A DNA stretch of 64,000 nucleotides from Phycisphaerae bacterium (GTDB lineage: Bacteria; Planctomycetota; Phycisphaerae; Sedimentisphaerales; Anaerobacaceae), in the NCBI GenBank assembly GCA_028715705.1, contig JAQURJ010000002.1, forward strand, positions 1 to 64,000, read 5' to 3'. Positions 27,872-57,954 of the stretch are shown here, piece after piece. Under the pieces are notes generated by a model, which saw only the letters and a program-made list of their open reading frames with translations, was not told the origin of the DNA and searched no databases. The number at the start of each line of letters is the position of its first letter. Position 1 is the stretch's first letter. The position numbers and the translations under genes are program-made.

Positions 27872-29645
27872 AACACCGTACTACGACCTTGTACCCAAAG
27901 ACTTTGTGGCGAATCTTTGTTTTCGCAAAGAAATGATCCAGATGGGTTGCACAGACCCAAAAGCGGCTGAGGAACTTTGGATAATGTGTTCCAGAGACCC
28001 ATTGTTTTATATCAATGCCTTTGTTTTCACCTACGACCCAAGACGCCAACCGTCGGCACTGCCATTTATCACTTATGATTATCAGGATGAGGCGATACTT
28101 TCTATTGACGATGCACTCGGCGACCACGACCTGTTTATCGAAAAATCCAGAGATATGGGCGCAAGCTGGCTATCCATATTCGGCTTTGAGTACCGCTTCC
28201 ATTTCAGAACGCTTCAGTCGTTTCTCTGCGTCAGCCGCAAAGAAGACCTTGTTGACAAGACAGAAGACCCGGACTGTTTGTTCTGGAAAATAGATTTCAT
28301 ACACAAGAATCAACCCGGCTGGTTAAGACCGAACGTCAACCGTACCAAGTTGCACATTTACAATATCGAGAACGGCTCGACGATTGATGGTTCATCCACA
28401 ACTGGCGATGTTGGACGCGGCGGTCGTAGAACTGCGATACTTCTTGATGAGTTCGCAAGTGTTGACGATGGTCATGCCGTACTTAGGGCGACACGTGACA
28501 CTACGACCTGCCGCCTTTTTAACTCCACACCCAAAGGTACTGGCAATGCGTTCTATGACATGAAGCAGACCGACGTTGCCAAACTCCGTATGCACTGGAG
28601 TAAACACCCAATAAAATCCGCCGGTCGTTACGTCTCTGAAAACGGCGTTGTGAATATCATCGACACTGCTTTTACTTATCCGGCTGATTATGAATTTATC
28701 CTCGACGGCAAACTTAGAAGTCCTTGGTATGACGCTGAATGCAAACGTGCAGCCCATGCGATGGAAATAGCTCAGGAACTCGATATTGATTATCTCGGCA
28801 GCGATTATCAGTTCTTCGATAGTGTTGTGCTTGATAGAGTTCAAAAAGAGCAGGTCAAAGAGCCGTATCTGCAAGGCGATCTTGATTTTGATATAAATAC
28901 AATAACGCCGCACGGATTTATCGAAAGAGAAAAAGGTTCGCTGCTATTGTGGGCTTATGTCGATGCACATGGCAATCTACCCGAAGACCGCAATTATTGT
29001 TTAGGTGTTGACGTTGCCGCTGGCACTGGCGCAAGTAATTCATGTATAACAATCGGTGATTGCAAAACCAAAGAAAAAATTGGCGAATACGCCGTCAACA
29101 AATACAAACCTCACGAATTGGCTAAAGTTGCCGTTGCACTTTCCAGATGGCTTAAAGGATCATCCGGTACTGCACGGCTTATCTGGGAGGCCAACGGGCC
29201 GGGCAGGGAATTTGGCGATACGGTAATCGAACTTGGCTATCGCAATGTATATTACCGCGTAAATGAGCGGAGTTTATCAAAGAAACAAAGCGATACACCC
29301 GGCTGGTTTAGTACCAAAGAGGGAAAACTTGCATTACTTGGCGACTATCGAAAGGCTTTGGCTGCAAGTGACTTTGTGAACCGCTCATATCAGGCCATAA
29401 GGGAAGCAAGGGAATATGTTTTTACGGCTACCGGCTCGGTAGAACACGCAGGAAGCATTAACACCGTCGATCCAACCGGGGCAAGAGAAAATCACGGCGA
29501 CAGGGTTATTGCCGACGCTCTCTGCTGGCGCGGCATGAAGGAATTCCACACGGCTACCGCTACTCAGCAGGAGATACCGGATAACTGTATTTTCGCACGG
29601 CGGATGCAGGTGGAAAACCGCAAGAGGGAGAAAGTATATTGGTAA
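27861..29645 (+). CDS. terL: Terminase large subunit
   Basis: A 594-residue packaging motor/nuclease. The start ATG at 27,861 (MANRTPYYDLVPKDF) is chosen; the open frame further upstream overlaps the previous gene and is shadow. The ATPase has a Walker-A-like SRDMGAS (about residues 95-101), Walker B TAILLDEFASVDDG (about 190-203) and coupling motif NSTPKGTGNAF. The RNase-H-fold nuclease shows GVDVAAGTGASNS (about 381) and late acidic NHGDRVIADALCW (about 543). All catalytic elements are present. It cuts and pumps the phage genome into the capsid through the portal encoded next. Confidence 0.93.
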   Translation: MANRTPYYDLVPKDFVANLCFRKEMIQMGCTDPKAAEELWIMCSRDPLFYINAFVFTYDPRRQPSALPFITYDYQDEAILSIDDALGDHDLFIEKSRDMGASWLSIFGFEYRFHFRTLQSFLCVSRKEDLVDKTEDPDCLFWKIDFIHKNQPGWLRPNVNRTKLHIYNIENGSTIDGSSTTGDVGRGGRRTAILLDEFASVDDGHAVLRATRDTTTCRLFNSTPKGTGNAFYDMKQTDVAKLRMHWSKHPIKSAGRYVSENGVVNIIDTAFTYPADYEFILDGKLRSPWYDAECKRAAHAMEIAQELDIDYLGSDYQFFDSVVLDRVQKEQVKEPYLQGDLDFDINTITPHGFIEREKGSLLLWAYVDAHGNLPEDRNYCLGVDVAAGTGASNSCITIGDCKTKEKIGEYAVNKYKPHELAKVAVALSRWLKGSSGTARLIWEANGPGREFGDTVIELGYRNVYYRVNERSLSKKQSDTPGWFSTKEGKLALLGDYRKALAASDFVNRSYQAIREAREYVFTATGSVEHAGSINTVDPTGARENHGDRVIADALCWRGMKEFHTATATQQEIPDNCIFARRMQVENRKREKVYW

Positions 29646-31414
29646 GTTTTAGCGATACCCAATTACCTAAGCTGCGAGAGGCTATTTCATACAGCCGCAG
29701 GAAACTTATGCCGTTCCGTCAGCAGCGGTACGAGGCGATACGTCAGTATGTCGGCTTTCATTATTCCGATGATGGTACATCAGACCGTGTCCCGGTAAAT
29801 CTTTTGGAGCTTGCTGTAAATATCTATACCCAGCAGGTAGCAGCCCGTGCGCCGAAAGCGTTGGTGCAGACACGTTTCAGAGACTTGAAACCGATGGCGG
29901 CTGATTTTGAACTGGCATTAAATCACCTTATTAAGGAAATCCGGCTTGGTCAGACTATCCGTTTAGCTGTAATTGATGCTCTGTTTAGTCTCGGTATTAT
30001 TAAAAGCGGTTTGGAACGACGTGCCTCTGTCGAGATAGCCGGTTTTCTGCATGATGTAGGCCAGCCATTTGCCGATGTTGTTTCATTAGATAATTGGGTT
30101 CACGATACCACTGCTACAAGGTTGGAACAATGCCAGTTTATGGGCGATAGATACAGACTTCCGCTTGAACTGGTCAAAGAATCAAAGGCGTTCAAGAATA
30201 CTGCTCAATTACAGGCTACTGTAAAAACAGGCTATAACGAAAGCGGTGACACAAAAACAGAAAGTTTGTCGCATGGTACTGAATCTGACCCGGACGAATA
30301 TAAAGACCATATCGAACTTTGGGATATTTGGCTTCCGCTTGAAAATCTTCTTTTGACAATCCCAGCAGAAGGCGAAGGAAAAACTTTACGCATTATCGAA
30401 TGGGACGGCCCCGAAACCGGCCCCTATAAGGTACTTTCATTTTCCGATGTGCCGGGAAATATCATGCCGCTTGCGCCAAGTGCGTTATGGATGGATTTAC
30501 ACGACCTTGCCAATAGATTGTTCCGCAAACTTGGCAGACAGGCAGAACGTCAAAAAACTGTACTCGGCGTACAAGCCGGTTCTGAAGACGATGGCGACCG
30601 GATTATCAAGGCAAATGATGGTGAAGCGTTAAAGATGGATAATCCCGACCGGGCAAGGGAATATCGTTTCGGCGGAATAGACCAGCCTTCTTTGGCGTTT
30701 TTGTTACAGGTAAAGGATTTATTCGTCTATCTGGGCGGCAATCTCGATACATTGGGCGGTTTATCGCCGATGGCCGAGACGTTGGGACAGGATCAACTTT
30801 TGGCGCAGAACGCATCAAAACGTGTAGCTGATATGCAGGATAGAGTCATTGAGTTTTCCAAAGAGGTTATCTGTGACCTTGGATTCTATTTATGGAATGA
30901 CCCTCTAATCGAACTTCCGCTCACCAAACGAGTGCCGGGTTTTGACAATCTTTCCGTCCCGGTTACTTTTGACGCTGAATCCAGAGAAGGTGACTTTTTC
31001 GACTATAACATCGAAATAGAGCCGTTCTCGATGCAGCATCAGACACCACAAATGAAATTACAGGCGTTAGTACAGGTATTCCAGCAGTTCCTTGCACCTT
31101 ATGCCCCGATGATGGCGGAGCAGGGAATCGGAATTAACTTTGAAGCACTGCTTGCAATTATATCCAAATATACCAATGTCAGCGAACTTCAAGATATTTT
31201 GGAATTTGCCGCACCGCCAACCGTTTATAAACCGGGCGTGGTAGGTCAGCCACCGCAAAAAATGGGTATGGGCGGTACTACTCGTCATATATCTGAGCGC
31301 GTAAATCGTCCCGGCGCAACTCGTAGCGGTAAAGACGCTGCGCTTATGCAAACTCTTTTAGGTGGTAATCCACAGGCATCGGAACTTGCAGCTATTAGGA
31401 GACCGACAGGATGA
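29639..31414 (+). CDS. Portal protein
   Basis: A 591-residue protein placed directly after TerL and before the capsid genes. It starts at a TTG with GGGAG upstream and overlaps terL by 7 nt. Its length, the alpha-rich N-terminal region (LREAISYSRRKLMPFRQQRY, YVGFHYSDDG, VNIYTQQVAARAPKA), an IKSGLERR-type core and Gln-rich C-terminal helices (LQALVQVFQQFLAPYAPMM) fit short-tailed phage portals. It forms the dodecameric ring for DNA passage. Assignment rests on position plus overall pattern. Confidence 0.85.
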   Translation: MVSFSDTQLPKLREAISYSRRKLMPFRQQRYEAIRQYVGFHYSDDGTSDRVPVNLLELAVNIYTQQVAARAPKALVQTRFRDLKPMAADFELALNHLIKEIRLGQTIRLAVIDALFSLGIIKSGLERRASVEIAGFLHDVGQPFADVVSLDNWVHDTTATRLEQCQFMGDRYRLPLELVKESKAFKNTAQLQATVKTGYNESGDTKTESLSHGTESDPDEYKDHIELWDIWLPLENLLLTIPAEGEGKTLRIIEWDGPETGPYKVLSFSDVPGNIMPLAPSALWMDLHDLANRLFRKLGRQAERQKTVLGVQAGSEDDGDRIIKANDGEALKMDNPDRAREYRFGGIDQPSLAFLLQVKDLFVYLGGNLDTLGGLSPMAETLGQDQLLAQNASKRVADMQDRVIEFSKEVICDLGFYLWNDPLIELPLTKRVPGFDNLSVPVTFDAESREGDFFDYNIEIEPFSMQHQTPQMKLQALVQVFQQFLAPYAPMMAEQGIGINFEALLAIISKYTNVSELQDILEFAAPPTVYKPGVVGQPPQKMGMGGTTRHISERVNRPGATRSGKDAALMQTLLGGNPQASELAAIRRPTG

Positions 31415-33314: not shown

Positions 33315-34397
33315 ATGAATCTTACAGATGAACAAATTAAGGATTTAGCTCTTTCCACTCAGAAAGAGCTTGGCAAGCTGAAGTTTAATCAAATTGCCCA
33401 AAAACTTCAGCATTACGACGTTATGGGCAAAATAATGAAAAAGGATAAGGTGCAGTTCGATTCGGGCAATGGTATTCAGCGAAATATCATGGTCGATAAC
33501 TCTCAGGCTGCCCGTAACACCGGATTGTATGCAAAAGATGCGGTAAACGTCGCCGACGTGATGAAGCAGATTTCTATCCCTTGGCGGCATACCACAACCA
33601 ATTACGCATTCGAGCGGCGTGAGATGGCTATGAACAGCGGCGCAAGTCGTATCGTCAATCTGATGAAGGTACGGCGAACCGATGCGTTCCTTGCCCTTAC
33701 CGAACTGATGGAAAAGAATTTCTGGGGTGCGCCAGCCGATTCCAGCGATACGCTAACTCCGTTCGGTGTAAGGTACTGGATTAACAAGTACGCTGCAATC
33801 GGCGGAAGCGGTGTGGCACATGCCGGTTTCAATAGCGACAGTCCATCTTTTGAATCCAACGGCCCCGGTGGTTTAAGTCATGCCAAATGGCATAACTACA
33901 CAGGTCAGTACGCCTCGGTATCTAAAACAAGTCTTATCGCTTTGATGAGACGGGCGCACAGGATGATTAAATTCGAGTCTCCTGTTGATATTCCCGATTA
34001 CCGAAAGGGTAAGGGACAGCAGTACCGTATCTATACCGACCTGCCTACCGTAGAGGCAATGGAAAAAATCGGCGAGGCTCAGAATGAAAACCTCGGTCGT
34101 GACCTTGCGCCTTACGACGATTCGATGACCTTTAGAAGGCATCCGATTGTCTGGTGTCCTCAGCTTGATGCAGGTAACGATAATGAAGGTTCTCCGGCTA
34201 ACACCGAAGGTGATATTTTCTTTATCAACTTTGCGTGGTTCTATCCGGTGTTCCTCAAAGGTGAATATCTGCGAGAAGCTGAACCTGAGAAAGCACCCGG
34301 CCAGCATACCGTATTTGTCAACCATATCGACCTGACTTGGAATATCCTTTGTACCGATCTTCGCAGACAGGCGATTCTCTGGAAAGCAGCAGCTTAA
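33315..34397 (+). CDS. Major capsid protein
   Basis: A 360-residue protein expected to have the HK97 fold. It has an N-terminal helical arm (LTDEQIKDLALSTQKELGKL), a DNSQAARNTGLY stretch and a Trp-rich core (IPWRHTTTNYAFERREMAMN), and a C-terminal segment DLTWNILCTDLRRQAILWKA that closely fits short-tailed phage major capsid proteins. A GAAAGG ribosome site precedes it. Placement between scaffold and decoration-type genes makes the call firm. Confidence 0.88.
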   Translation: MNLTDEQIKDLALSTQKELGKLKFNQIAQKLQHYDVMGKIMKKDKVQFDSGNGIQRNIMVDNSQAARNTGLYAKDAVNVADVMKQISIPWRHTTTNYAFERREMAMNSGASRIVNLMKVRRTDAFLALTELMEKNFWGAPADSSDTLTPFGVRYWINKYAAIGGSGVAHAGFNSDSPSFESNGPGGLSHAKWHNYTGQYASVSKTSLIALMRRAHRMIKFESPVDIPDYRKGKGQQYRIYTDLPTVEAMEKIGEAQNENLGRDLAPYDDSMTFRRHPIVWCPQLDAGNDNEGSPANTEGDIFFINFAWFYPVFLKGEYLREAEPEKAPGQHTVFVNHIDLTWNILCTDLRRQAILWKAAA

Positions 34398-41053: not shown

Positions 41054-42409
41054 ATGGGAATAAAAATTGAACATAGACCCAGCGGTGAATCGGTCGGTAA
41101 TATTGCTTACGCAGTGGGACAAGGAGAGGGGCTGGAACGCCGCACACAGCAGGATAGAGAATACAGTCTCCAGCGGGAAATAAACGCTATCAGAGAAAGA
41201 GCGCGTCAGGATGCGAACGCTCAGTTCTATGCTCAATTACAGGCTCAGATTCAAGCCCGCAATGACGAAATGGCATTTCGGGAAAGACAGTATGAGGAAC
41301 TTCCGGGAAGGCAGCAGCAACTTGGTGAAATTGAAAATAGTCTAAGAAAAGATTTAGGTGAATGGGAATACTCCCGCGCACAGCAGCGGGAACTTGCTAA
41401 ACTGTCACAGGCAAGAGACTATGTCACGCGCAATCCCGACGGACGCTACAGTCCGCAGGAGCAGGAAAATTTTCTTCGCCAGATAGATGAAATGGAGTTC
41501 GGCTTTAAGCCAATGCAGAAAAAGACCGAATCGCCTTGGCCTAAAGAGCAGGATGTAGGCCAGATTTGGACAGACCAGACCAGCGGCGCAACTTTAACTC
41601 GTGACGACAAAGGCAATGTCAAAGTGCTTGTTGACCCTGATGACAGCACATCTTTTGCCAACCAGCTTAAACTGAAGGAAACAATCGCCAAACACGCAAA
41701 GGATATTTACGATTCTCGTCAGATGTCGGAAAATCCTATTTCTATAGAAGAATCCTTCAAAATCGCCGAAAAATTTTATGCCGATCTTATGCCGCAGCCG
41801 CAAAATAATCCCACGCCAGCCGGTGATGAAGAAACAATGGCCGACACAATGCTTCGCAGCGTAATGAGTCCGCAAACTTATCAAGCGGCCAAAGCGACAG
41901 GACTGCCTTTAAAAGATATTTACTTTATGACTCAGCAGTTAATGTCGCAGCCGCAAGGAAGTGTTACTCTTGCAGACGACGTTAAGAAAAAAGACTGGCT
42001 TGCAAATGACAATAATTTTAATAAATTCAAAGAGCGGTACGCAAGAGGTGTTCCTCGAAGTCAGATAGAACAGGACTACCAAAATCAGAATGCTGCTCCT
42101 GATAAAATCGCTTTGGAATGGCAACAAGCCGGGGGCGATCCAAGTGCAGAGTACGCATACCAAAAATATCTCAAAGAACACAAGAAAAAAAATCTGCCCA
42201 CAAAAAAAGGATGGAAAACGGTTGATGGTGAAATTGTATCTCTTGATTGGACACCGCCTTTGACAAGAAAAGAGTTTTGGGAAAAAGCTAACGAAGATGA
42301 TGCGTTCGCAAAAAAATATTTTGCCGGAGCAATAAACAGGAAACCGCCTTCTTTCACAGGCGGCGGAATACCAACCGCAAAAGGCACAATGGCTTTGGGG
42401 ATTAGATAA
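41054..42409 (+). CDS. Putative internal/ejection protein, coiled-coil rich
   Basis: A 451-residue hydrophilic protein. Residues 25-150 are long charged helices (QQDREYSLQREINAIRERAR), a small beta segment follows (GQIWTDQTSGATLTRDDKG), and the rest is helical with Gln/Asn/Pro linkers. The C-terminus has KKGWKTVDGEIVSLDWTPP. Length, composition and place before the giant polyvalent gene match virion internal proteins. Its stop overlaps the next start by one base (TAATG). Confidence 0.65.
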   Translation: MGIKIEHRPSGESVGNIAYAVGQGEGLERRTQQDREYSLQREINAIRERARQDANAQFYAQLQAQIQARNDEMAFRERQYEELPGRQQQLGEIENSLRKDLGEWEYSRAQQRELAKLSQARDYVTRNPDGRYSPQEQENFLRQIDEMEFGFKPMQKKTESPWPKEQDVGQIWTDQTSGATLTRDDKGNVKVLVDPDDSTSFANQLKLKETIAKHAKDIYDSRQMSENPISIEESFKIAEKFYADLMPQPQNNPTPAGDEETMADTMLRSVMSPQTYQAAKATGLPLKDIYFMTQQLMSQPQGSVTLADDVKKKDWLANDNNFNKFKERYARGVPRSQIEQDYQNQNAAPDKIALEWQQAGGDPSAEYAYQKYLKEHKKKNLPTKKGWKTVDGEIVSLDWTPPLTRKEFWEKANEDDAFAKKYFAGAINRKPPSFTGGGIPTAKGTMALGIR

Positions 42410-45400
42410 TGAACTGGCAGGAAATGTTTCTCGATGACTTGACCAACCAGCGAAATGCAACCGCTGTAGCCGAACCTAAGCCAATTGGTCTATTGGAAAA
42501 CATCGAAAGAGGCGGCTGGTCTGGATTTGCAGACAGAGCCACATTCGGTGTTAAGCCGATGGTCGAAGCAGGTATGCTTTATAACGCAACCAAAAGATTC
42601 CAGCTTGATGATTACCCCCGAACTGATGAAGGCTGGCAGCAGAGACTTGATGATAAAGACCGCATTGTCGAATATCTGGAGGAACAGGCCGAAATTTCCC
42701 AGAGAGGTTTGACAATACCGGCTAAGGTGGGAACGGTTGTTTTCGATATGCTTCCCTTTATGGCGGAATTTTTGGCTACAGGCGGATTGTCAGCACTTGG
42801 CAAGGCTGCCGCTAAAAAATCTATCCTTAACTTAGCTGGGAAATACGCAGCCAGCCGTACCGCTCGTATTGCCGCTGATATTGGCTCTACTATGGTGTCT
42901 GCCGGGATAAGAAGCTCACTGACACCACAGCACATAGCGGAAAAATACTTTGAGAATCAGTTACCTCAAATGCAGCTTGATGAAAGTAATAGTGTTGTTC
43001 TCGGTGACACAGAAAATACTCCTGCCACTGCCATTTATAAAGCGATTGGCGATTGGTACATTGAGCTATTAAGCGAAGAATCCGGGGCCGGTATCGCTCG
43101 CATGGCGAAAGGTATAATGCCAAAGGGAATAAATAGTTCCGCATCGAAGCTCATAAATTCACTTCGCAGGAAATGGATAAAAGCTATGCCCGGTAGGGAT
43201 AGTGTGGCATTTGCCAAACGAATGGCTCAAAAAGCTGGTTTTCACGGCATACTTGAAGAAATGGGCGAGGAACGGCTCGGTGACTTGCTTCGTGCGACAT
43301 TTAACATCGAAGATTTTGGTCAAAAAGATGGTAATACTTTTGACAGGCTTGTTGCCGCTATCCCAGATGGCGAGCAGTTGCTTGTCGAGTCACTTGCCTT
43401 TAGCGTACCCAGTGCTGGCAGAATGGCTTTAGCGGCAGGTCACGAACTTGCGGTACAGCCTAAAAAAGAACAGCAGTCAAAAGAATATCTATTGACCCCG
43501 GAGGGTGCGCAATTGTTTGCACGATTAAATCCGCAGGCCGCTTCCACCATTGCACAAAAAGAAAATCCAAGCAGAAAGGATATGCTGGCAACCGGAATAT
43601 CACGCTGGAGCGGCGATGAGAGAAATAAGTTTTCACAGCTTTTACGGCAGTTTCAACAGCCTGCTACACAACAACCGGCGCAGGATTTGCCGCAACCGCC
43701 GATAGAAGAAGCAGAAACTTTGGAAGACCAACCAGAAGAACAACCGCCACAAGTTCCGCAAATACAAACAGACGCCGAAAAGTATTACTATTTCGACGCC
43801 GATGAGGAAAAATTTGTCGAGGCCGAAGATGCCGAAAGGATAGTTTTTCCCGGTCTTGACGGAGCTGATTTCTTTGTCGCACAGAGAAAAGGTAAATGGA
43901 GTGTCTATGAAGCCATCAGCGGTTTGCAGGTCAGCGTTAAAAACAAAACCAAAAAAGGCGCAGTACAGGAGGCTATTGAAAAATTAGGCAAACACACTGC
44001 CGATGATATTCAGAAATATATTGATGCCGCTGTAGAAAAACACGGACATAGCCCAAAGTACCCAGACTACGTTAAAACTCAGACAGAAAAACCGCAACCT
44101 AAACCAACGATGGCGAAATACGGTGATACATATACCGGAGATGCTTTCCGTGCAGAAACCGGCTTCACCCATGATAAGAATGCAACCGCTGCCGATGTTG
44201 TCAGGTATGAGCAGGATGAATTAGGTAATGATTTAGGTGTATCGGATGAACAGCTTAGCGAACTGGAAAATTACTCTGCCGACCAGATTAAATGGGTGAC
44301 AAGGACAGAAGAAGCGGCAAATAGATACGGAACGCCACAGCAGGTACAGGCTGAGGGCGGGAAAGTTATCGCTGAGATCGGCTCTGATGGTGTTTTGGTC
44401 TTAATGCAGAAAACTGAATCCAAAGAGCAACCACAAGAGCCGCAAACAACCACACCAAAGTTTAACGAAGGCCAGAAGGTTAAATACACAGACAGAACCG
44501 GTAAAATCGTTACAGGGATTGTCACTGGCACTACAAAAATCGGCGAAAAAGATTATGTGAATGTAACAGCCGATCCCGAACATGAAACAGTTGTCGGCGG
44601 CGGTATCCCGATTGGCCGAAAGGAAACTATCCCTATTGGTAAGGTGACAGCTATCGAAGAAACTGAGCGAAAAGCTGAATCGAAACCACAGCCCAAAAAG
44701 AAAAGCATTACCGAAAATCTCTCAGCCCAAAAACAACAGCGTCTTGAAGAACTCAAAAAACGGTTCAAGGATAAAATAAATAATCAGCTAAATATGGGTT
44801 TTGACCCTGAAATGCTGACAATCACCGCTGAAATGGCCGCCCTTTATATCGAGGCCGGTGCGAGAACTTTCGCCAAGTTTGCAAAAGCGGTTGTTGCTGA
44901 TGTCGGCGGTCAGTTTAAGCCGTATCTTAAAAGCGCATACCTTGCGGCACGGAATATGCCGGGTATGGAAGATTTTCGCAGCGAAATGGATGGGGCTGAT
45001 TTTGTTGATAAATTGACGGACAGGGAAATTTCTAATATATTGGAAACAGATTCAAAGGAGACAGACAATGCTGGATTGGAACATAGAGGATTGGAAGAAA
45101 CTGGATTTGAGCGGCAAGGACAGCAATCTGATTCAGGCGGCTCTATGGCATCTTCAGGAACAGTGGCCGCGGAAACTGGAGAGGCTTCTATTGAAGGGCA
45201 AGCTGATGAATTATCTTCTGGACGTTCACGACAAGGCACTGGAGCAGAGGACGATACTCAATCAGCAGAACATGCCGGAGGACGTAGTCGAGGAGATGAT
45301 ACACAGACAGGTGGTAGCACCGGAAAATCCCAAGTACCCGGACATGGAAGTGGAGGATCAGATTCTAAACGAGAAGGCGACGAAGCTGCTGGAACAGTTC

Positions 45401-48400
45401 AACAACCTTCTGTGGAGGGACAAGGAAGATTACGACCAGATGCAGTTAACCACAGGATAGCTTCCGATGATGTAATCGCCCCAAAAGGTGCTATTACACA
45501 AATAAAAGCCAATATCGAGGCGATAAAACTATTAAAACAGCTTGAAGCTGAAAACCGCAACGCAACACCCGAAGAACAAAAAATTCTCGCTCAATATAGC
45601 GGCTGGGGGAATCTCTCACAGGTTTTCCACGAAGGCTATGGCCGGGCAATGATTGCCTTTGAGAATAATGAGGACGAATATGAATGGAAGTGGAGCCGAG
45701 ACGAGAATTGGGAAAAAAAATGGGGCAAATACTATAAGCAATTAAAAGAACTTCTCACCGAGCAGGAATTTAACGCCGCTGCCGCTTCTACACTTAACGC
45801 TCATTACACTGAAAGAGGTGTAATTGAGTCGATGTGGGATATGGCCGAAAAACTTGGCTTTAAGGGGGGAACTATTCTCGAACCGGGTGCAGGGATTGGG
45901 CATTTCTTCGGCCTTATGCCGCAGCAGCTTTCAGAAAACAGCAAACTTATCGGTGTTGAACTTGACTCTATCAGCGGTCGCATTCTTTCAAAACTGTACC
46001 CGAAGGCAAAGACATTTAACAAGGGCTTTGAGGATGTAAATATCCCGCCCAATTCAGTTAATTTGGTTATATCAAATTATCCATTCGCTCAGCAAGGCCC
46101 GGCTGATGCGAAAAAACGGTACGGTATAGATTTGAATCTGCACAATTATTTCTTTGCACGCAGTATTGACGCTCTGCGTCCGGGTGGAGTGCTTATCGCA
46201 ATTACTACCCATCACACGATGGATTCGGCGATGAACCAAAGAAAACTGCTCGCTTCAAAAGCAGAGCTTATCGCCGCAATCAGGCTTCCCAATACCGCAT
46301 TTAAGGAAAACGCCGGTACGGAAGTCACTACCGATATTATCATTCTGCGAAAACCTTTGACAGAGCAAATAGGCGGTAGCGACTGGACAAGGGTGGGTGA
46401 AATCGAAACTGAAGAAAGCAAGGTCGCCAGCATAAACGAATATTTCATCAGTAACCCCGAAATGATGTTGGGTAAGCCGAGTATGGAAGGCTCTTTGTAT
46501 GGGGCAGAAGAAGAATTTACCTTAAAACCATTGGATATGCCGCTTTCGCAGTCTATTGATGAGGCTATTGAGAAACTGCCTGAGAACATAATTTCCGCTG
46601 ATACTGCCGATGTCGATTTTGAGGATATTGGTTCTGCTGACGGGTACAAGGATAATTCGCTTATTTTCCAGAACGGAAAATTAGTTGTTTTGCAGGAGGG
46701 TAAATTTGTACCTGTATCGGAAGTAAGCGACAAACTAAAATCAGCCAGCGCGAAAAAACAGGCCATTCGCTACATAAAACTTCGTGACACATACCAACAG
46801 CATCTTCAAACAATGCTTCGTGAAGACGCTACAGACGACGATATTATCCAGTCCCAAAAGAAATTAAACGAAGCCTACGATGAATATATCGCAAAATACG
46901 GCTTTGTTACCAACGACAGTACCAAGAAATTCTCGTTTGATCCGGGCTATTACCTTGTCGCCTCTCTTGAAGAAGTACATACATCCAAAGACCTTGTAAC
47001 CGGCAAGGACGTAAAACAGGTCGATAAGGCCGCTGTCTTTACTAAAAGGACAATCGAACCTGTCAGACCCCCGGCAAATGCAGAAAGTCTCGCCGACGCA
47101 TTGAAGATTTCACTGTGCTATCGGGGTAAGGTCGATATTAGGTATCTATCAGAACTGATAAATAAAAGTGTGGAAGATGTTCAAAAGCAGCTTTTAGACA
47201 GCGGTATCGCTTACGATAATCCCGCTACCGGCCTTTGGGAAACTTCTGAGCGGTATTTAAGCGGCAATGTCCGGGAAAAACTGCGCGTAGCAGAGGTTGC
47301 CGCAAATAGCGATAAGCATTTTGAAAAGCATGTCAAAGCCCTCGCTGAAATCCAGCCTAAAACGGTAGGTATAAAGGATATTCATTTCAGGCTCGGTGCG
47401 GCATGGATACCGCAGGATATTATTCAGGACTTTGCCCGTGACATCCTCTCCAGCCCATACGCAAAGGTGAAATATGTCGCAAGCCTCGATGAATGGACGG
47501 TCGTTTCCGATAGTTTTGTTCACAACGCCCGAAATACCGAGACCTACGGCACGAAAAGGTTCTATGGGCATGAACTTCTGGAAAAAGCCCTGAATATGCG
47601 CCAGATCAGGGTGACTGATAAAATTAAGGATGGCGACAGCACTCGAACCGTCTTTAATCAGAAGGAAACCCTTGCGGCTCAGATGGTTGTTGAAAAACTC
47701 CAGCAGGAATTTTCAAAATGGATTGAAAAGCATGATGAATACTCCCTGAAATTGCAGGAAGAATATAACGAGCATTTTAATTTCTATGTAACCCCCAAAT
47801 ATAACGGTCAGCATTTGGAACTGCCCGGTTCGAGCAATGTCTTTCAATTAAGAGACTATCAAAAGAACGTCGTCTGGCGGATGCTTCAGGATAGATGCGG
47901 TATGATTGCTCATTGTGTCGGTGCGGGGAAAACTTTGGCAATGGCCGCAACTGCTATGGAGATGCGAAGGCTTGGTTTGGCTAAAAAGCCTTTGATTGTG
48001 GTTCAAAACTCTACGCTTGGGCAGTTTCCGTCACAGTTTAGGGCGATGTACCCAACAGCCAATATACTTGTGGCAACGCCGGAAGACCTTGAGGCGAAAA
48101 AACGCCGTGTCTTTATGGGTCGTATTGCATCGGGTGATTACGATTCCATCATAATGGCACAGAGCAGTTTCGACCTTATCCCCAATGACCCGGCCAGACA
48201 AGAAGAGTATATGCACCAGCAGATGGCTGAGTTAAAGGATAGTCTCTATGATGTTGCCGCTGCTGAGGGTGATAAAAGTCCATCTGTAAAGGCGATTCAA
48301 AGAAGGTTAAAATCACTTGAAAAGAAATTAACTAAACTGCGTGATAAACTCTCCGCTCGGCAGGACGATGTGATAAACTTTGAGCAGCTTGGTATTGACG

Positions 48401-51400
48401 CTCTATTCATAGATGAGGCTCATGCCTATAAAAAACCGCCATTTACCACCAAACTAAGCAATATCAAGGGAATAGACAATAATCCAAGTCAGAAGGCATC
48501 AGACCTGTTTTTGAAATGCCGCCATATTCAGGAAAAAACCAATGGCAAAGGGGTAATCTTAGCCACAGGTACGCCGGTAACGAATACTTTAGGTGAGGCA
48601 TGGCACATGCTGAATCTCTCGACACCACATCTATTGGATGAATTCAGTATTGATACATTCGATAGGTTTGTTGCTGCATTCGCACAAATCCTGCCTACAA
48701 TCGAAATGAACGCAGGCCAGAGATGGGTACAGCGTCAGGTATTGAGTAAATTCGCCAACGGGCCGGAACTATCGAGACTGATACAATCGGCTTGGGACGT
48801 CCTTACCCGTGACGATCTGGCAGCAGAACTTGAAAAACTCGGTAAAAAATTGCCTCAGCTAAGGGGCGGAAAAACTGAATCTGTTAGCGTACCATTGTCA
48901 CCTGCTGTAAAATCATTCAACGGCTTTTTGAAAAAAGTCTATGAACGATATGAAAACTTGCAGGGAAAGGAAAAACAGCAGTATAACTGGGTCCCGGTAG
49001 TAACATACAACGCAGCAAAAGCGGCGGCTCTGGATATTCGATTGGTTTATCCAAAAGCCAAAGACGATCCCGGCAGCAAGGTAAATACATTAGTTAAAAA
49101 CGCTTTGGATATTTATAACAAAACAACCGATTCAAAGGGAACGCAATTATTATTCTGCGATTCATTTAATCACGTCAATATGTCTAATCTAAGCAGGTTT
49201 GTTTCGGGCGAGGCAGTGGAAATAGATGTCGAGGAGGACTCCGAAGCACCTATTATGGAGGATATGTTCCTCTATAAGGATATAAAGCGAAAACTTATAG
49301 GACAGGGAGTTCCTGAACACGAGATTGCTGTTGTCAGGGATTATAAATCCACAGCGCAAAGAGAAGCTCTGTTTGACCGAGTTAATGCAGGAGATGTGCG
49401 AATACTAATCGGCAGTACATCCGCTATGGGTGTCGGTGTAAATGTCCAAAAGAAACTCTATGCTATTCATCATCTCGATACCCCTTGGCTTCCGGCTGAC
49501 CTCGAACAGAGACAGGGAAGGCTACTTCGGTATGGTAATGAAAACGAATTTGTCGAGGAACTTGCCTACGGTATGGAAAATACACTCGATGCAGCCATAT
49601 ACGCAAAGATTGTGCGGAAGGCAAAGTTTATATGGCAGGTATTAAGCGGTCAGGTTAGCGCAAGGGAATTTGAAGACCCGGCAGGTGCGCTGATTATCTC
49701 GGCTGAGGAACAGATGGCTTCATTATCGGGCGATCCGAGAATATTTGAAAAGATCGAACTTGAAAATTCACTTCGCCAGATGCGAATGGAAAAAGACGCA
49801 CACGCTGATGCGGTTGCCCGCAGCCGGGATACCAAATTCAAGAGTCAAAAGGAAATAATGGAACTGGTCGATAAAACAATCCCGGCTAAAAAAGAGAGGC
49901 TTGAAAAACTTGAAAAACTTATCGACGGAACTAACTGGAAACTGAACGGCGAATCTATTGATAAAAAGGATTTAACTGCAAAGCTCTCCGATATAATCGA
50001 CAAACGCAGTGAAAAGATTCTAAACGACACCAAGAAAAGTATTATCGAGCCGTATAATCCAAGAGGTCTTGCTGCCTTGACGGATAATAATATCGTCCTT
50101 AAAAAAAATATAAACGGCCTCGATATTTTGATGGTGATGGGGGTATATAAGGTAGCCGCACACGATGTTAAGGGGGGATTAACTTTTGACTGGCAGGTAG
50201 AGGTAAATACCAAAATTAGTCTTGACGGAACTGGCCTTTATCACAGTGACGCTAAAACCGGCACTGGCGTTGTTATGGCGATTGCCAATATGCCTAAACA
50301 AGCGGCAAGGGAACTTGAAACCAGTGAAAACAGGGTTCAGTATCTAACGAATAACATTAAGGAACTTGAAGCGATAATCGAAAAGCCCTACGAAAAACAA
50401 TCGCAGCTCCAAGCCGCTGAGCAGAAATTATCCGAAATCAATCGAGACCTTGTCGGAGAGGATAAGGATAAACCGCACAATATCAAAAAACCAAAACTTG
50501 CGCCAGATGCGGCAAAACAAACAACATCGGATAATGAGGCTAACACCGAAGACGGCAAAAAGCTGATAAAGAAAATAAACGATGGCAGTACCAAAGGCCC
50601 CCGAACGATTGTTGAATTTGTAAACGATCTTGTATCTGCAAAGATGCTTGTTGGTAAAAGTCAGACTTCCAATAGAAATCCTGCACACTATACCGCATTC
50701 GGTCATATCATTCGCAGCAGAAGCGGTATATGGCAGCTTAACTTCCATGAGGCCGGTCACGCTCTTTCTGAAATGCTCAGCGACAGCAAAAAGAACTGGA
50801 ACAGTGACATTAAAGACGACCTTGTTGCGTTCGCTAAAAGAAGCGGCTCTATGGCCTCAGCGAAAACTGCCGAAGAAGGATTCGCCGAACTTATCCGCTG
50901 CTATATCACAAACCGAGACGAAATACCCGGCAAACTCGTTAAGGGTTTTGAAATGGCTTTAGGCGAATTGTCACCTGATATTCTGGATGGCTTAAATGAT
51001 GCTCGTAAGGCATACAGCCTGCACCGCTCAAAGCCGATTCTCGACCAGTTAAAAGCCATTCAGCAGGATAAACCTGCTGGAAAATCTTTATCAGAATCCC
51101 TTACAGACCTTGCGTATAACGGATTGTACGCATTGCTCGGCGGTTCTGCTGTTATACACCGGCTTATCCGAAGCACATTCAATAAAATGGCTGGCAATGG
51201 AAAATTCTCTGCTTTGGATATTACCGGTGCGGTGGGACTGGTTAAATCGAAGTTGGATAGTGCGTATAAGGCACGGCTAAAACTTGCTCGTAAATTCCGT
51301 GACGAAATTACCAATACCAAAGCGGATATTATGTCAGCATACCAGACTATGATACATCTGCGGCAGGAGGTACAGCGGGCGTTATACGGCATAAGAAAAG

Positions 51401-54060
51401 GCCGGGAGGGTATCAGGGTATATTCAACCGGAAATGGATTTGAGGAACTCGTTGAACAGGAACTTGAATTATTAAAGACCGCTGGCTTTGAAATTCCAGC
51501 CGAATCCCCAAAGCATGGTCACTGGCTGTATCTATCGGATAAATCTATAAGCCGGATAAAACATGAGGTGGGGCTGGAAAATTGGGAGGCATTCTGTTTA
51601 TACGGTCAATACCGTGCTGCACTTGAACGCTATTACAAAAAACGTCACGAATACCCCGGCATGTTCGACGGATTGAATCCAGAGGTTTTGCAGGATTGGC
51701 TAAGAGAGCAAAATGCCCAAAATCCGCAATGGGATAATCACTTTAAGCAAATCCAGAAATACATGGATCAGTTGCTGCTTGTGTCGGTGTTTTCCGGCGA
51801 GCATACTGTTGCCGAAGCGGTGAAAATTAAACTTGCATGGGAAGATTACTGGCCGCTGCCCCGACAAATTGAAGATAAGCGGATAAAGAACAGCGGCGGT
51901 GGCATTGACCCGGATAGCGGAATAAGGGCGGCGTTTGGTTCGTCACTACCTTTTAGAACTCTTGACGAGGCGATTGAAACCCGTACTCGAATGGCATTTG
52001 AGGCATACTATACGAACCGGCTTATGTGGTCGATGATAGAGTTCGGCAAAAAAATAAACAATATGAAGGAGCTTCCCTTTGAGGTTAGGAAGAACGCTGC
52101 TCGGATTATGCTTCCACTTCGATTGGATACTAAACTTGCCGCCACGATGAGCGATTTAGAACAGGCACAGATAATTGCCGATTACCTCAATAAGCAGAAG
52201 GCACAGGAATTAGGTATGACAATCCAGATGCTGAAACTTACCGCGCAAGACTACGACCCCGACGATATAGAAATTACTCATCCCGGCAGAAAACTTTGGC
52301 GGTCAGCCAGACCGAGAGCTATTCGGGTTGTTTCGGTTTTCAGGAATGGAAAACGAAGGTATTATCAAGTTACAGACCCACTATTGTTCGAGATGTTGTC
52401 ACGAGGTAATAATCCATCGAAGTATTTCGGTTGGATTTCAAAGGCGATGACCGGCATGATTGCTCCGTGGCGCAGGGCTTTGACACAGAATATCGGGTTT
52501 GCTCTGGCAAATAGTATCAGCCGTGACCCTGCTAACGCTGGATTTATGGGTAAAGACGGTGCAAAGTCACTCATTCCTTATTATTATGCCGGTTGCGGCC
52601 TGATTAACCGCCTCAAAGGAAATAACATAAATGCCGATGCGGTCAGCCAGTCGGAACTTTTAAGCAAGGCACTCGACCATACCACAAAAGACGCTCATCA
52701 GGGGATTGTAGGCTCGTTTAAGGAAATGCTGAAAGAGGGAATAGTTCTCGGTGATTATCGTGAACTAAATCTGTCTGACAAAGCCGCAACTCTGCCCGGA
52801 CAGATTATGAGTACCTTGATGAAGCCAATAGATATATTCAATTGGACAAGCGGTGGACGCTGGCTTTCACAGACCGGCGAAGAACTGCCCCGTGAGGGTG
52901 CGTATATCTCCGCTATCAAGCGAGGACAAAGCCCGGAAGCAGCACAGGTCGATTATGATTATATAACAGGTGACTTTGGCGGCAAACCGGGTTCTGCCAA
53001 TATCGCCTCGATGGTTAAGGCTGCTGGATTCCTTAACCCTGCTTTGCGTATTATGTGGGGGCAATTTACACGGGTATCAGACCCAGACCCTGCGGCACGA
53101 GCGTTTAATATGGCCGCTAAAGTTCCTGCTCTTATGATGTGGGGTGCGATTGGTGCGGCAATAAATTACCTGATTATCCGGGCAATAAATCCTGATGACG
53201 ATGACAGGGAATCTGTATTGGAACAGATGAGGGAACGCCCGGACGATAATCGTTTGGCATATATGGCTATAGCCGGAAAAATCCGATTACCATTCGATTA
53301 CGGCCTTATCGGCGCGGCATGTTCTTATGGCTGGAACTCTGTTGAACAGTGGCTCTTGGATGATCCGATTTCCGCTGAAAAGAAAGCACAGGTTTTGTTG
53401 GCGAGGGCAAGGGAACTGCCCGGTATAACTGACATCATTAATCCATACATTAAGACCGGCGCGGAACTTTGGTTAAATCACAGTTTCTTCTATGATGACG
53501 ATATTGTGCCGGTGTGGATGGAAGCGGCTTATCCATATAATCCCGAAATGAAGACTTGGCCGAATATGCCGGAAATCTATAATAAAATTGGCAGAGGACT
53601 AAAGGTAAGTCCAATTAAGGTGCGCTATGCAGTTCAGAACATCTTTACTCGCCAAATGGACGATGCAGTCAAAGTAGCCGAAAAAATAGCTGGCAAAGAG
53701 CCATTTAATGAGGCAGCGGATTTGCCGGTAGTCGGACGGCTTATAGATCGTAAATCCACTGGCTGGCAATCACAGTCCGTAAAAAGTCTTTCAGACCTTG
53801 ACCAGCAATACGATTCGCTCAAAGCGCAATTAAAGGATATGGAAAAACGAGGTCAAACAAAGGATTACCGGCAGTTACAAAGGGAAATAGCGAAACTCCA
53901 GCCACTGCATAACGCCATGCGGCAGATAGAGAAGCTGTGGAAACAGGTGAAAACCGAATCGGCCAGACCGAACCCTGACAAGGGCAGGATAGACCGGCTG
54001 AAGCAGGAAATGACGAGAAGGGCTAAGATGTTCCTGAAAAGAAACCAAAAAGCAGCTTGA
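42409..54060 (+). CDS. Giant polyvalent protein: DarB-like methylase, SNF2 helicase, zincin, LPD38-like C-terminus
   Basis: A 3,883-residue protein. N-terminal helical region 1-450; small domains near 460-510 and an SH3-like segment near 683-750; a helical ADVGGQFKPYL domain near 815-857; a low-complexity linker about 887-1017. Then a DarB-like N6-adenine methylase (motif I ILEPGAGIGHF near 1155, motif IV SNYPF at 1222-1226), a SNF2-type helicase (CVGAGKT with K1841, DEAH 2002-2005, ATGTPVTN, DLEQRQGRLLRYGN), a coiled coil, a zincin (HEAGH 2780-2784, then EEGFAELIRCY), and a C-terminal region from about 3290 matching large polyvalent domain LPD38. Such proteins are packaged and injected to protect incoming DNA, DarB of P1 acting against type I restriction. 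Function in this phage is inferred from architecture. Confidence 0.85.
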   Translation: MNWQEMFLDDLTNQRNATAVAEPKPIGLLENIERGGWSGFADRATFGVKPMVEAGMLYNATKRFQLDDYPRTDEGWQQRLDDKDRIVEYLEEQAEISQRGLTIPAKVGTVVFDMLPFMAEFLATGGLSALGKAAAKKSILNLAGKYAASRTARIAADIGSTMVSAGIRSSLTPQHIAEKYFENQLPQMQLDESNSVVLGDTENTPATAIYKAIGDWYIELLSEESGAGIARMAKGIMPKGINSSASKLINSLRRKWIKAMPGRDSVAFAKRMAQKAGFHGILEEMGEERLGDLLRATFNIEDFGQKDGNTFDRLVAAIPDGEQLLVESLAFSVPSAGRMALAAGHELAVQPKKEQQSKEYLLTPEGAQLFARLNPQAASTIAQKENPSRKDMLATGISRWSGDERNKFSQLLRQFQQPATQQPAQDLPQPPIEEAETLEDQPEEQPPQVPQIQTDAEKYYYFDADEEKFVEAEDAERIVFPGLDGADFFVAQRKGKWSVYEAISGLQVSVKNKTKKGAVQEAIEKLGKHTADDIQKYIDAAVEKHGHSPKYPDYVKTQTEKPQPKPTMAKYGDTYTGDAFRAETGFTHDKNATAADVVRYEQDELGNDLGVSDEQLSELENYSADQIKWVTRTEEAANRYGTPQQVQAEGGKVIAEIGSDGVLVLMQKTESKEQPQEPQTTTPKFNEGQKVKYTDRTGKIVTGIVTGTTKIGEKDYVNVTADPEHETVVGGGIPIGRKETIPIGKVTAIEETERKAESKPQPKKKSITENLSAQKQQRLEELKKRFKDKINNQLNMGFDPEMLTITAEMAALYIEAGARTFAKFAKAVVADVGGQFKPYLKSAYLAARNMPGMEDFRSEMDGADFVDKLTDREISNILETDSKETDNAGLEHRGLEETGFERQGQQSDSGGSMASSGTVAAETGEASIEGQADELSSGRSRQGTGAEDDTQSAEHAGGRSRGDDTQTGGSTGKSQVPGHGSGGSDSKREGDEAAGTVQQPSVEGQGRLRPDAVNHRIASDDVIAPKGAITQIKANIEAIKLLKQLEAENRNATPEEQKILAQYSGWGNLSQVFHEGYGRAMIAFENNEDEYEWKWSRDENWEKKWGKYYKQLKELLTEQEFNAAAASTLNAHYTERGVIESMWDMAEKLGFKGGTILEPGAGIGHFFGLMPQQLSENSKLIGVELDSISGRILSKLYPKAKTFNKGFEDVNIPPNSVNLVISNYPFAQQGPADAKKRYGIDLNLHNYFFARSIDALRPGGVLIAITTHHTMDSAMNQRKLLASKAELIAAIRLPNTAFKENAGTEVTTDIIILRKPLTEQIGGSDWTRVGEIETEESKVASINEYFISNPEMMLGKPSMEGSLYGAEEEFTLKPLDMPLSQSIDEAIEKLPENIISADTADVDFEDIGSADGYKDNSLIFQNGKLVVLQEGKFVPVSEVSDKLKSASAKKQAIRYIKLRDTYQQHLQTMLREDATDDDIIQSQKKLNEAYDEYIAKYGFVTNDSTKKFSFDPGYYLVASLEEVHTSKDLVTGKDVKQVDKAAVFTKRTIEPVRPPANAESLADALKISLCYRGKVDIRYLSELINKSVEDVQKQLLDSGIAYDNPATGLWETSERYLSGNVREKLRVAEVAANSDKHFEKHVKALAEIQPKTVGIKDIHFRLGAAWIPQDIIQDFARDILSSPYAKVKYVASLDEWTVVSDSFVHNARNTETYGTKRFYGHELLEKALNMRQIRVTDKIKDGDSTRTVFNQKETLAAQMVVEKLQQEFSKWIEKHDEYSLKLQEEYNEHFNFYVTPKYNGQHLELPGSSNVFQLRDYQKNVVWRMLQDRCGMIAHCVGAGKTLAMAATAMEMRRLGLAKKPLIVVQNSTLGQFPSQFRAMYPTANILVATPEDLEAKKRRVFMGRIASGDYDSIIMAQSSFDLIPNDPARQEEYMHQQMAELKDSLYDVAAAEGDKSPSVKAIQRRLKSLEKKLTKLRDKLSARQDDVINFEQLGIDALFIDEAHAYKKPPFTTKLSNIKGIDNNPSQKASDLFLKCRHIQEKTNGKGVILATGTPVTNTLGEAWHMLNLSTPHLLDEFSIDTFDRFVAAFAQILPTIEMNAGQRWVQRQVLSKFANGPELSRLIQSAWDVLTRDDLAAELEKLGKKLPQLRGGKTESVSVPLSPAVKSFNGFLKKVYERYENLQGKEKQQYNWVPVVTYNAAKAAALDIRLVYPKAKDDPGSKVNTLVKNALDIYNKTTDSKGTQLLFCDSFNHVNMSNLSRFVSGEAVEIDVEEDSEAPIMEDMFLYKDIKRKLIGQGVPEHEIAVVRDYKSTAQREALFDRVNAGDVRILIGSTSAMGVGVNVQKKLYAIHHLDTPWLPADLEQRQGRLLRYGNENEFVEELAYGMENTLDAAIYAKIVRKAKFIWQVLSGQVSAREFEDPAGALIISAEEQMASLSGDPRIFEKIELENSLRQMRMEKDAHADAVARSRDTKFKSQKEIMELVDKTIPAKKERLEKLEKLIDGTNWKLNGESIDKKDLTAKLSDIIDKRSEKILNDTKKSIIEPYNPRGLAALTDNNIVLKKNINGLDILMVMGVYKVAAHDVKGGLTFDWQVEVNTKISLDGTGLYHSDAKTGTGVVMAIANMPKQAARELETSENRVQYLTNNIKELEAIIEKPYEKQSQLQAAEQKLSEINRDLVGEDKDKPHNIKKPKLAPDAAKQTTSDNEANTEDGKKLIKKINDGSTKGPRTIVEFVNDLVSAKMLVGKSQTSNRNPAHYTAFGHIIRSRSGIWQLNFHEAGHALSEMLSDSKKNWNSDIKDDLVAFAKRSGSMASAKTAEEGFAELIRCYITNRDEIPGKLVKGFEMALGELSPDILDGLNDARKAYSLHRSKPILDQLKAIQQDKPAGKSLSESLTDLAYNGLYALLGGSAVIHRLIRSTFNKMAGNGKFSALDITGAVGLVKSKLDSAYKARLKLARKFRDEITNTKADIMSAYQTMIHLRQEVQRALYGIRKGREGIRVYSTGNGFEELVEQELELLKTAGFEIPAESPKHGHWLYLSDKSISRIKHEVGLENWEAFCLYGQYRAALERYYKKRHEYPGMFDGLNPEVLQDWLREQNAQNPQWDNHFKQIQKYMDQLLLVSVFSGEHTVAEAVKIKLAWEDYWPLPRQIEDKRIKNSGGGIDPDSGIRAAFGSSLPFRTLDEAIETRTRMAFEAYYTNRLMWSMIEFGKKINNMKELPFEVRKNAARIMLPLRLDTKLAATMSDLEQAQIIADYLNKQKAQELGMTIQMLKLTAQDYDPDDIEITHPGRKLWRSARPRAIRVVSVFRNGKRRYYQVTDPLLFEMLSRGNNPSKYFGWISKAMTGMIAPWRRALTQNIGFALANSISRDPANAGFMGKDGAKSLIPYYYAGCGLINRLKGNNINADAVSQSELLSKALDHTTKDAHQGIVGSFKEMLKEGIVLGDYRELNLSDKAATLPGQIMSTLMKPIDIFNWTSGGRWLSQTGEELPREGAYISAIKRGQSPEAAQVDYDYITGDFGGKPGSANIASMVKAAGFLNPALRIMWGQFTRVSDPDPAARAFNMAAKVPALMMWGAIGAAINYLIIRAINPDDDDRESVLEQMRERPDDNRLAYMAIAGKIRLPFDYGLIGAACSYGWNSVEQWLLDDPISAEKKAQVLLARARELPGITDIINPYIKTGAELWLNHSFFYDDDIVPVWMEAAYPYNPEMKTWPNMPEIYNKIGRGLKVSPIKVRYAVQNIFTRQMDDAVKVAEKIAGKEPFNEAADLPVVGRLIDRKSTGWQSQSVKSLSDLDQQYDSLKAQLKDMEKRGQTKDYRQLQREIAKLQPLHNAMRQIEKLWKQVKTESARPNPDKGRIDRLKQEMTRRAKMFLKRNQKAA
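45068..45460 (+). CDS. Gene nested out of frame inside the polyvalent gene; TnpV-like
   Basis: A 130-residue frame shifted one base from the host gene. AAAGGAG (45,054-45,060) lies 7 nt before its ATG, a textbook ribosome site. The protein looks genuine: MLDWNIEDWKKLDLSGKDS, LLLKGKLMNYLLDVHDKA, QQNMPEDVVEEMIHRQVV and a helical charged end. The LLLxGKLxxYLxDxxxxA pattern and helical build resemble TnpV proteins of mobile elements. In the same interval the giant frame reads as low-complexity Gly/Ser/Asp/Glu sequence, as expected when a frame is overprinted. The nested frame is thus probably the older one; TnpV identity is moderate. Confidence 0.6.
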   Translation: MLDWNIEDWKKLDLSGKDSNLIQAALWHLQEQWPRKLERLLLKGKLMNYLLDVHDKALEQRTILNQQNMPEDVVEEMIHRQVVAPENPKYPDMEVEDQILNEKATKLLEQFNNLLWRDKEDYDQMQLTTG

Positions 54061-56590: not shown

Positions 56591-57847
56591 TTATCCCAAT
56601 TTCTTCGCTACTTCATCCGCCAAACCCTGATTCCGCTCGGCATAAATTGCCGTTGCGCTCATATTTGAATGCCCAAGCAAAGCACCGGCAGTCTCGTAGT
56701 TGAACAGTTTCCTTGCTTTTGTAGCAGCAGTATGGCGAAGCTGGTAAGGCGTCCATTTGGGCAGTTCTTCGTCAGGGTCGCCGCCTCTGGCTTTAATATC
56801 CTTCCTTGCGGCATCTATTGCCGCTTTTACGGCCTTCGCATAGCTGCATGAATCATAATGATCTCCCGGCTGTTTTTGTGGGTTATCCTTTCGATTGCTG
56901 CCAACGGTATTTCCACATGAAAGGGGGGTTTGACGGTCTTCGGTACGTTTTTCCAGTCTAAATTTTTCCGATTCAGCGGGGGAAAAACAGTAGCTATCAG
57001 CATTCCTCAACAGAAACGGCATGAGTATTCTTTGCCCTTGCGGCCCCAGCGGTACAATTCGTTCGTGTCCTCTATATTCGTTTTTGTGCCTCTCTGGAAA
57101 GTAATGCCAAACTTCATCGCTTCGATCTATATCCTTGGGTTTCATCTGAACCAATTCTCCCGGGCGCATGCCGGTAAGCAATTGAAGTTCGACCATTGTA
57201 GCTATTACAGGTGTTGCGTAATTGAGAATTTGATAAACATGTTTTTCGTCGATAGGCTTTACTTTCTTGCCTTCTTTTGCAGCACTTCTCCCTCGCTTTA
57301 GACCTTCGATGGTCGCCAGTGCTTGGTACAGAAATGACGAAATAAGTTGAGTGCTTACCGCCCACTTAAACATTCTTTTGATTTTGCAGATTTGCTTATT
57401 TATCTGTTTTCTGCACCATCCGAGTTTAATCATTTTTTCACGAACGTCCATCAGTTTCAGCGGGCCAAATTCTTCAATAGCTAAACTTCCATATAGGTCA
57501 ATAAGCGGTTTTAAGGCATAGCGAATATGCAGTGGTTCTGAAGTTGGATTACCGTTGTCATCAAGGTAGTATTTATTCGCATAGTTGGTATATGCTTTAG
57601 CCAGTTCCGCGATATTTTCAGGTCTGCCAGTGATTGTTTTTTCTGACTCGAATATGGCCTTTGCCCATAAATATCTGGCACATTCTTCGGCAACACTTTT
57701 ATCCTTTGTGGCCTGTGTTGAGCCGACTGGTTTGAGCGGGTACGACTTTACTTTGTCCTCTCCCGGCAATTTGACCTTCCACCAATAGCGGTTTCCGTTC
57801 TTGTAGATTGTACCCGGAATGTCGGTCGTTCTTTTTGTTTTTGCCAT
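56591..57847 (-). CDS. int: Tyrosine integrase of the element
   Basis: A 418-residue tyrosine recombinase from ATG 57,847 (AGGAGC 7 nt upstream; upstream in-frame sequence is rejected). An N-terminal arm-binding domain (KNGNRYWWKVKLPGEDKVKS) and a core-binding domain precede the catalytic domain, with the first Arg in LLTGMRPGELVQM, the box-II YQLRHTAAT with Tyr in place of the usual first His, GHSNMSATAIYAERN with the late His, and the nucleophilic Tyr. It lies 113 nt from the 3' end of tRNA-Arg, its likely target, with GTTATAA repeats in the gap. It should catalyse insertion at the anticodon-loop core and excision with an excisionase. Confidence 0.93.
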   Translation of the reverse strand: MAKTKRTTDIPGTIYKNGNRYWWKVKLPGEDKVKSYPLKPVGSTQATKDKSVAEECARYLWAKAIFESEKTITGRPENIAELAKAYTNYANKYYLDDNGNPTSEPLHIRYALKPLIDLYGSLAIEEFGPLKLMDVREKMIKLGWCRKQINKQICKIKRMFKWAVSTQLISSFLYQALATIEGLKRGRSAAKEGKKVKPIDEKHVYQILNYATPVIATMVELQLLTGMRPGELVQMKPKDIDRSDEVWHYFPERHKNEYRGHERIVPLGPQGQRILMPFLLRNADSYCFSPAESEKFRLEKRTEDRQTPLSCGNTVGSNRKDNPQKQPGDHYDSCSYAKAVKAAIDAARKDIKARGGDPDEELPKWTPYQLRHTAATKARKLFNYETAGALLGHSNMSATAIYAERNQGLADEVAKKLG

Positions 57848-57871
57848 TTCATGCTCCTTAAAACTTAAAAG

Positions 57872-57890
57872 GTTATAAAAAAAGTTATAA
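57872..57890 (+). repeat. Right arm-type repeat pair, GTTATAA x2
   Basis: Two direct GTTATAA copies start at 57,872 and 57,884, 12 nt apart, between the integrase ATG and the tRNA. Motif, spacing and strand equal those at 8,114/8,126, supporting a shared binding protein and thus a common element. A CACG-n6-CGTG inverted repeat follows at 57,893-57,906. Confidence 0.55.
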
Positions 57891-57913
57891 GGCACGAAAA
57901 AACGTGTAAAGGG

Positions 57914-57954
57914 CAAAAGAAAAGCCCTCGTAAGGTTATTATTTACAAGGGCTT
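57914..57954 (-). terminator. Rho-independent terminator after tRNA-Arg
   Basis: On the minus strand AAGCCCT (57,954-57,948) pairs with AGGGCTT (57,928-57,922), followed by TTCTTTT. It lies 7 nt beyond the tRNA 3' end and would stop tRNA transcription before int. Confidence 0.75.

Follow-up and report, generated by a model that had tools for sequence, protein, structure and literature searches.

A probable TnpV-like small gene nested out of frame in the linker of DarB-like giant genes of phages

The DNA analyzed here (the window) comprises positions 1 to 64,000 of contig JAQURJ010000002.1 in the Phycisphaerae bacterium assembly GCA_028715705.1; it makes up most of a 69,163-base contig and contains phage genes, among them a giant gene for a DarB-like polyvalent protein (Table 1). 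Residues 1–1197 of the giant match PHROG 10089, 'DarB-like antirestriction' (E = 1.7e-89), and both the Helicase_C and SNF2-rel_dom matches lie above cut-off; the protein thus has the composition by which a DarB-like protein is recognized, that is, a methyltransferase C-terminally fused to a superfamily 2 (SF2)/SNF2 helicase. Within the giant gene, a second open reading frame (ORF) of 130 codons lies in the +1 frame. An earlier note on this DNA had described it as a complete gene with a Shine-Dalgarno (SD) sequence of its own, AAAGGAG seven bases before the ATG, and had called the giant frame over the same bases low-complexity; the former proved correct to the base, and the giant-frame sequence there is indeed rich in Gly, Ser, Asp, and Glu. 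From sequence comparison, this ORF is very probably a conserved, unannotated small TnpV-like gene in the linker of the giant, presumably read alongside the giant by internal initiation.

The length of the nested ORF does not by itself exceed chance: when synonymous codons were shuffled with the giant amino acids fixed, the +1 frame stayed open over at least this length with P = 0.12. A +1 stop requires a giant codon of the form NTA or NTG (Leu, Ile, Met, or Val) followed by A or G, and such codons are scarce in the disordered linker, so that an open +1 frame is nearly guaranteed there. Accordingly, neither ORF length nor synonymous shuffling was retained as evidence for a nested gene, and the case must be comparative. 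The frequency with which shuffles leave the +1 frame open, in the window and at many other loci where length is not significant, is also what favors reading the ORF as a noncoding by-product of a hydrophobic-poor, disordered linker free of +1 stops, an explanation weighed below against the comparative data.

Three viral contigs, L002, L003, and L024, encode the same giant, with the nested ORF retained in the same position; a fourth, L004, is identical to L003 in the giant/nested region. The start of the methyltransferase domain is 81% identical to that of the window in L002 and L003/L004, and the upstream domain is 75–82% identical in all, with the nested proteins of L002, L003, and L024 showing 43–47% identity to that of the window. 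At the SD sequence and start codon, AGGAGACAGACAATG is unchanged across the window and these three relatives. In all six pairs that the four sequences form, nested codon position 2 was the slowest and nested position 3 the fastest in the overlap, the opposite of the pattern in the flanking methyltransferase domain, where giant position 3 was the fastest. Conditioned on the nested protein, the giant frame of the window should contain 5.7–11.3 stops; none was observed, and the three relatives gave the same outcome. The absence of giant stops despite this expectation, together with the nested rate pattern, thus indicates that both frames are maintained.

The comparison was extended to 80 DarB-like loci fetched from IMG/VR with a methyltransferase alignment, nearly all of which have a +1 ORF of about 100 amino acids ending 0–170 bases before the aligned methyltransferase domain or slightly into it. 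Removal of duplicates left 66 nested proteins, 39 of which form one linked cluster by BLASTP. Among BLASTP pairs, which were selected by nested similarity, 212 match in the nested frame versus 60 in the giant linker, and nested identity is the higher in 207 of the 212. An unbiased set of 62 pairs, for which methyltransferase identity was the selection criterion, was compared in giant-frame alignments. Differences at giant positions 1, 2, and 3 were 0.46, 0.34, and 0.36 in the overlap versus 0.24, 0.17, and 0.54 in the flank, with position 1 fastest in the overlap in 53 of 62 pairs and position 3 fastest in the flank in all 62. The codon-position comparison that the earlier note had proposed thus shows rates that flip in the overlap, the nested frame being the constrained one. 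Furthermore, in simulations that fixed the giant amino acids, nested identity was above the null in all 22 pairs (mean z +5.5); applied as a negative control to the +1 frame of the methyltransferase domain, the test gave a mean z of −5.8 and is thus conservative. When conditioned instead on the nested protein, giant identity was hardly above expectation (mean z +0.4; window–L031, P = 0.035).

The giant frame nevertheless stays open. In 72 loci, a count that includes one doubtful nested ORF (L104), no giant stop was observed in the overlap, versus 138 (own-codon shuffle) to 327 (codon usage) expected. Both frames are thus open or conserved beyond chance (no giant stops; nested z +5.5), as dual coding entails. 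Judged by these substitution patterns, the nested protein is under purifying selection; the constraint appears to fall mainly on it, with the giant frame for the most part an open, hydrophilic spacer that would shadow the nested one.

Start signals were compared as well. An SD sequence of at least 5 nt precedes the nested ATG in 40 of 70 loci, versus 26 of 242 other long out-of-frame ORFs in the same giants (P = 8e-15). Against the by-product explanation stand this enrichment, the reversed codon-position rates, the nested identity far above the null in every pair, the conservation of the nested family where giant linkers are not conserved, and a confident predicted fold (see below); because of them it is already strongly contradicted and is now extremely improbable.

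Two other explanations both draw on Sinorhizobium phage PBC5 (L113, 1500–2800), the one split case, where the annotation divides the giant into two genes. Immediately ahead of the nested start, the PBC5 frame differs by a net one base, which places its upstream domain in frame with the TnpV-like protein; in the relatives of PBC5 the giant is intact. According to the first explanation, the giant frame is discontinuous in nature, joined here by an assembly indel, and the locus consists of three ordinary genes (upstream, TnpV-like, and DarB-like). The PBC5 annotation fits this, whereas no counted locus has the giant frame interrupted in the overlap and the giant is a single coding sequence in many finished phage genomes, leaving the three-gene layout with next to no likelihood. 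PBC5 was also considered as the ancestral split layout and rejected, as its state is a one-base difference from intact relatives in a record without other support. In the second explanation, ribosomes would enter the nested frame from the giant by programmed frameshifting, so that the N-terminal half of the giant would be capped by a TnpV-like domain. The PBC5 record does encode such a fusion in frame; the conserved SD sequence and ATG argue otherwise, as does the nearest preceding nested-frame stop, which lies at most 20 codons from the start in 47 of 72 loci and at most two codons from it in phages LASTA and PEp14, leaving scarcely any room for a shift site. Frameshifting is therefore considered very unlikely. 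Separately, PHROG 938, called an endolysin, has the same length as the PBC5 ORF that joins the upstream domain to the TnpV-like protein and matches the nested proteins strongly; its C terminus probably derives from a nested protein.

The earlier note had further supposed that the nested gene is ancestral and that the giant arose by the joining of an upstream gene to a DarB gene. The second supposition is not supported: the upstream domain, linker, and methyltransferase form one ORF in nearly all relatives, including LASTA, PEp14, Atu_ph08, POI1126, and VvAW1, and in reference phages the upstream domain belongs to the same giant ORF. With no separate genes in relatives, and with the fused giant and nested gene common to most of the sampled tree, the upstream-gene fusion was rejected. 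The first supposition survives in part, since the nested frame holds the constraint and the giant reading is best seen as an overprint, while a joining event in the lineage was not seen. On this evidence, the nested frame is favored as the older meaning of the overlap bases.

With respect to family, the nested protein of the window matches PF14198 (TnpV) at 18.6 bits (E = 0.0018), under the curated gathering cut-off of 27 bits, and it is therefore called TnpV-like rather than a TnpV; the likeness claimed in the earlier note holds, with membership falling short for this protein. One nested relative, L109, passes the cut-off (41 bits, E = 2e-10), other tested homologues that match score 18–24 bits, and at E ≤ 0.1 the family is matched by 22 of 45 members, the only Pfam match to recur. 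An AlphaFold model built with 44 family rows is all-helical, with a predicted local distance difference test score (pLDDT) of 88.6 and a predicted template modeling score (pTM) of 0.79. A second nested family (L066, L091, and their kin) shows the same helix order in its predicted model; profile comparison of the two main families gave weak similarity. Against viral models, Foldseek ranked Q8W6J4_2 first for the window protein (E = 0.2, probability 0.99), a model whose length suggests that it is one half of PBC5 orf33; the second family gave no convincing match. The nested proteins are mostly acidic, with a median isoelectric point (pI) of 5.1 and a pI below 6 in 56 of 72.

The window nested protein, used as a single query, had no match in INPHARED, PLSDB, or GTDB contigs; such searches being unproductive, family members were reached through the giant. 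By contrast with the rarity in phages that the earlier note had assumed, the arrangement is widespread among DarB-like giants. With the LASTA nested protein as query, tblastn returned 22 INPHARED records, 21 within a DarB-like/methylase region, including Klebsiella phages LASTA, SJM3, and SopranoGao, Erwinia phages PEp14, Stean, and Pavtok, Pseudomonas phage Itty13, Vibrio phage VvAW1, Agrobacterium phage Atu_ph08, Sinorhizobium phage PBC5, Ochrobactrum phage POI1126, and Microcystis phage Mwe-JY07. The 22nd record, Gordonia phage LittleFella, matched at chance level. A profile search added BcepIL02 (Burkholderia), DC1, JC1, and USP_18. In the reference-phage regions examined, the nested gene was nowhere annotated as a separate gene. 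Among 294 genomes of the phylum, a profile search gave one match beyond the genome of the window, L116, which was judged a false positive in a lipoprotein-like ORF. On a quick methyltransferase tree, with moderate inner support, the TnpV-like nested type occurs throughout, loci without a nested gene fall mostly in one clade, and four other nested types occupy one clade each; by this measure the nested gene follows the methyltransferase phylogeny.

Three further +1 nested families occur at the same site, each in one clade of the methyltransferase tree and without convincing Pfam assignment (L050, L051, L052, L056, and L059; L062, L070, L074, L077, L089, and L108; L045, L049, and L057), one of them carrying a PDSxEA motif. 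The site thus seems to have hosted different nested proteins. In addition, visual inspection of the Listeria phage LM 4-11-1 contig (L131, around 600–1000), a record assigned to a Firmicutes phage, showed a TnpV-like sequence in the +1 frame of its DarB-like giant, and the arrangement may extend to Gram-positive hosts. At the corresponding place in Bacteroides phage BKO1-TP3 (L121, around 1600–1900), a +1 ORF of about 90 codons has no evident similarity to the other families.

Table 1. Features of the window (positions in bases)
Feature	Position	Strand	Remarks
Terminase large subunit	27393–29645		
Portal-like gene	29639–31414		
Major head protein	33315–34397		
Giant DarB-like polyvalent protein gene	42409–54060	+	3,883 codons, one unbroken ORF; methyltransferase and SNF2-type helicase
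Conserved upstream domain of giant	44713–45054	+	FAKFAK...PYLKS...NMPGMED; 75–82% identity in 4 viral contigs
SD sequence of nested gene, AAAGGAG	45054–45060	+	7-nt spacer to ATG at 45068
Nested +1-frame gene (putative)	45068–45460	+	130 codons; TnpV-like, predicted helical protein of 130 amino acids; inside giant ORF
N6-adenine methyltransferase domain start in giant	45469–46602	+	43–81% identity to most of 16 loci; weak Eco57I match
SF2 (SNF2-type) helicase region of giant	47842–49537 (about)	+	ResIII, SNF2-rel_dom, and Helicase_C matches
Integrase-like gene	56591–57916	−	

On the minus strand of the window, at 13946–18594, another gene resembling a DNA methyltransferase, distinct from the giant, overlaps the end of a helicase-like gene of 1,009 amino acids.

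Several observations weigh against a conserved nested gene whose product serves the giant. Length is not significant in the window or at many other loci, as noted above, and the 5-nt SD sequence is absent in 30 of the 70 nested ORFs having an ATG. The nested gene was not seen in L080, L088, L104, L021–L023, P1, a Streptococcus phage, and several human-gut records. A Foldseek search of the PDB with the nested protein model found no match among solved structures, and the partner role is argued from location only.

The nested gene, with a predicted all-helical product of about 100–130 amino acids, would sit between the upstream domains of the giant and its methyltransferase domain. Some ribosomes on the giant mRNA would start independently at the internal SD sequence and ATG to yield the small protein; others would read through to make the giant, in which the overlap bases would serve as an open, hydrophilic spacer. 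Such internal initiation is inferred from the start signals. As no member of the family was found outside DarB-like giants, the best guess is that the small protein serves the giant made with it, by stabilizing, packaging, or injecting it. A DarB-like giant would itself be packaged in virions and injected, and gp69, the DarB-like protein of the Bcep22-like phage JC1, was detected among virion proteins (PMC9144972). The main alternative on role is a TnpV/Xis-like function of the small protein in phage integration or excision, with no partnership with the giant. TnpV of Tn4451 has been postulated, and only postulated, to act in excision, from its similarity to lambda Xis (PMC3158075), and the window does contain an integrase-like gene; set against this, the window protein scores under the PF14198 cut-off, all carriers seen have the gene inside the giant, and in the window it lies downstream of the head genes. 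An Xis-like role is thus unlikely. More tentatively, and with somewhat less than an even chance of being right, the DarB-like giants of many phages may be ancient, obligate two-protein systems of a giant and a small, helical TnpV-like partner encoded by the same stretch, the frame of the partner dictating the linker sequence and the site having held several partner families over time.

The likeness to PF14198 TnpV lies in the central motif region, W..e..P..l..Ll..GkL...L. The known TnpV genes, however, are separate genes in mobilizable transposons, whereas the present one is nested in a phage giant gene. That host gene belongs to the same class (PHROG 10089) as P1 DarB and the polyvalent DarB-like methyltransferase-helicase proteins, in the paper on which the words 'overlap' and 'TnpV' are absent (PMC5512222). 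P1 darB itself, unlike the window giant, has neither the upstream giant part nor the nested ORF. The literature searched contained no report of a nested gene in DarB-like giants. The nested protein may supply a component so far missing from the picture of DarB-type antirestriction, and its gene would explain the odd low-complexity linker of the giant. Nested phage genes are already known: lambda Rz1 in Rz and phiX174 E in D are complete genes in another frame, with their own starts, inside longer genes. What differs here is that one is kept at a fixed site across a large phage class, including sequenced phages of known hosts, and that the outer gene, a giant with several domains, runs to thousands of codons; here the inner frame appears to be the constrained one and the outer frame a spacer, providing a clean natural case of a gene read within a spacer.
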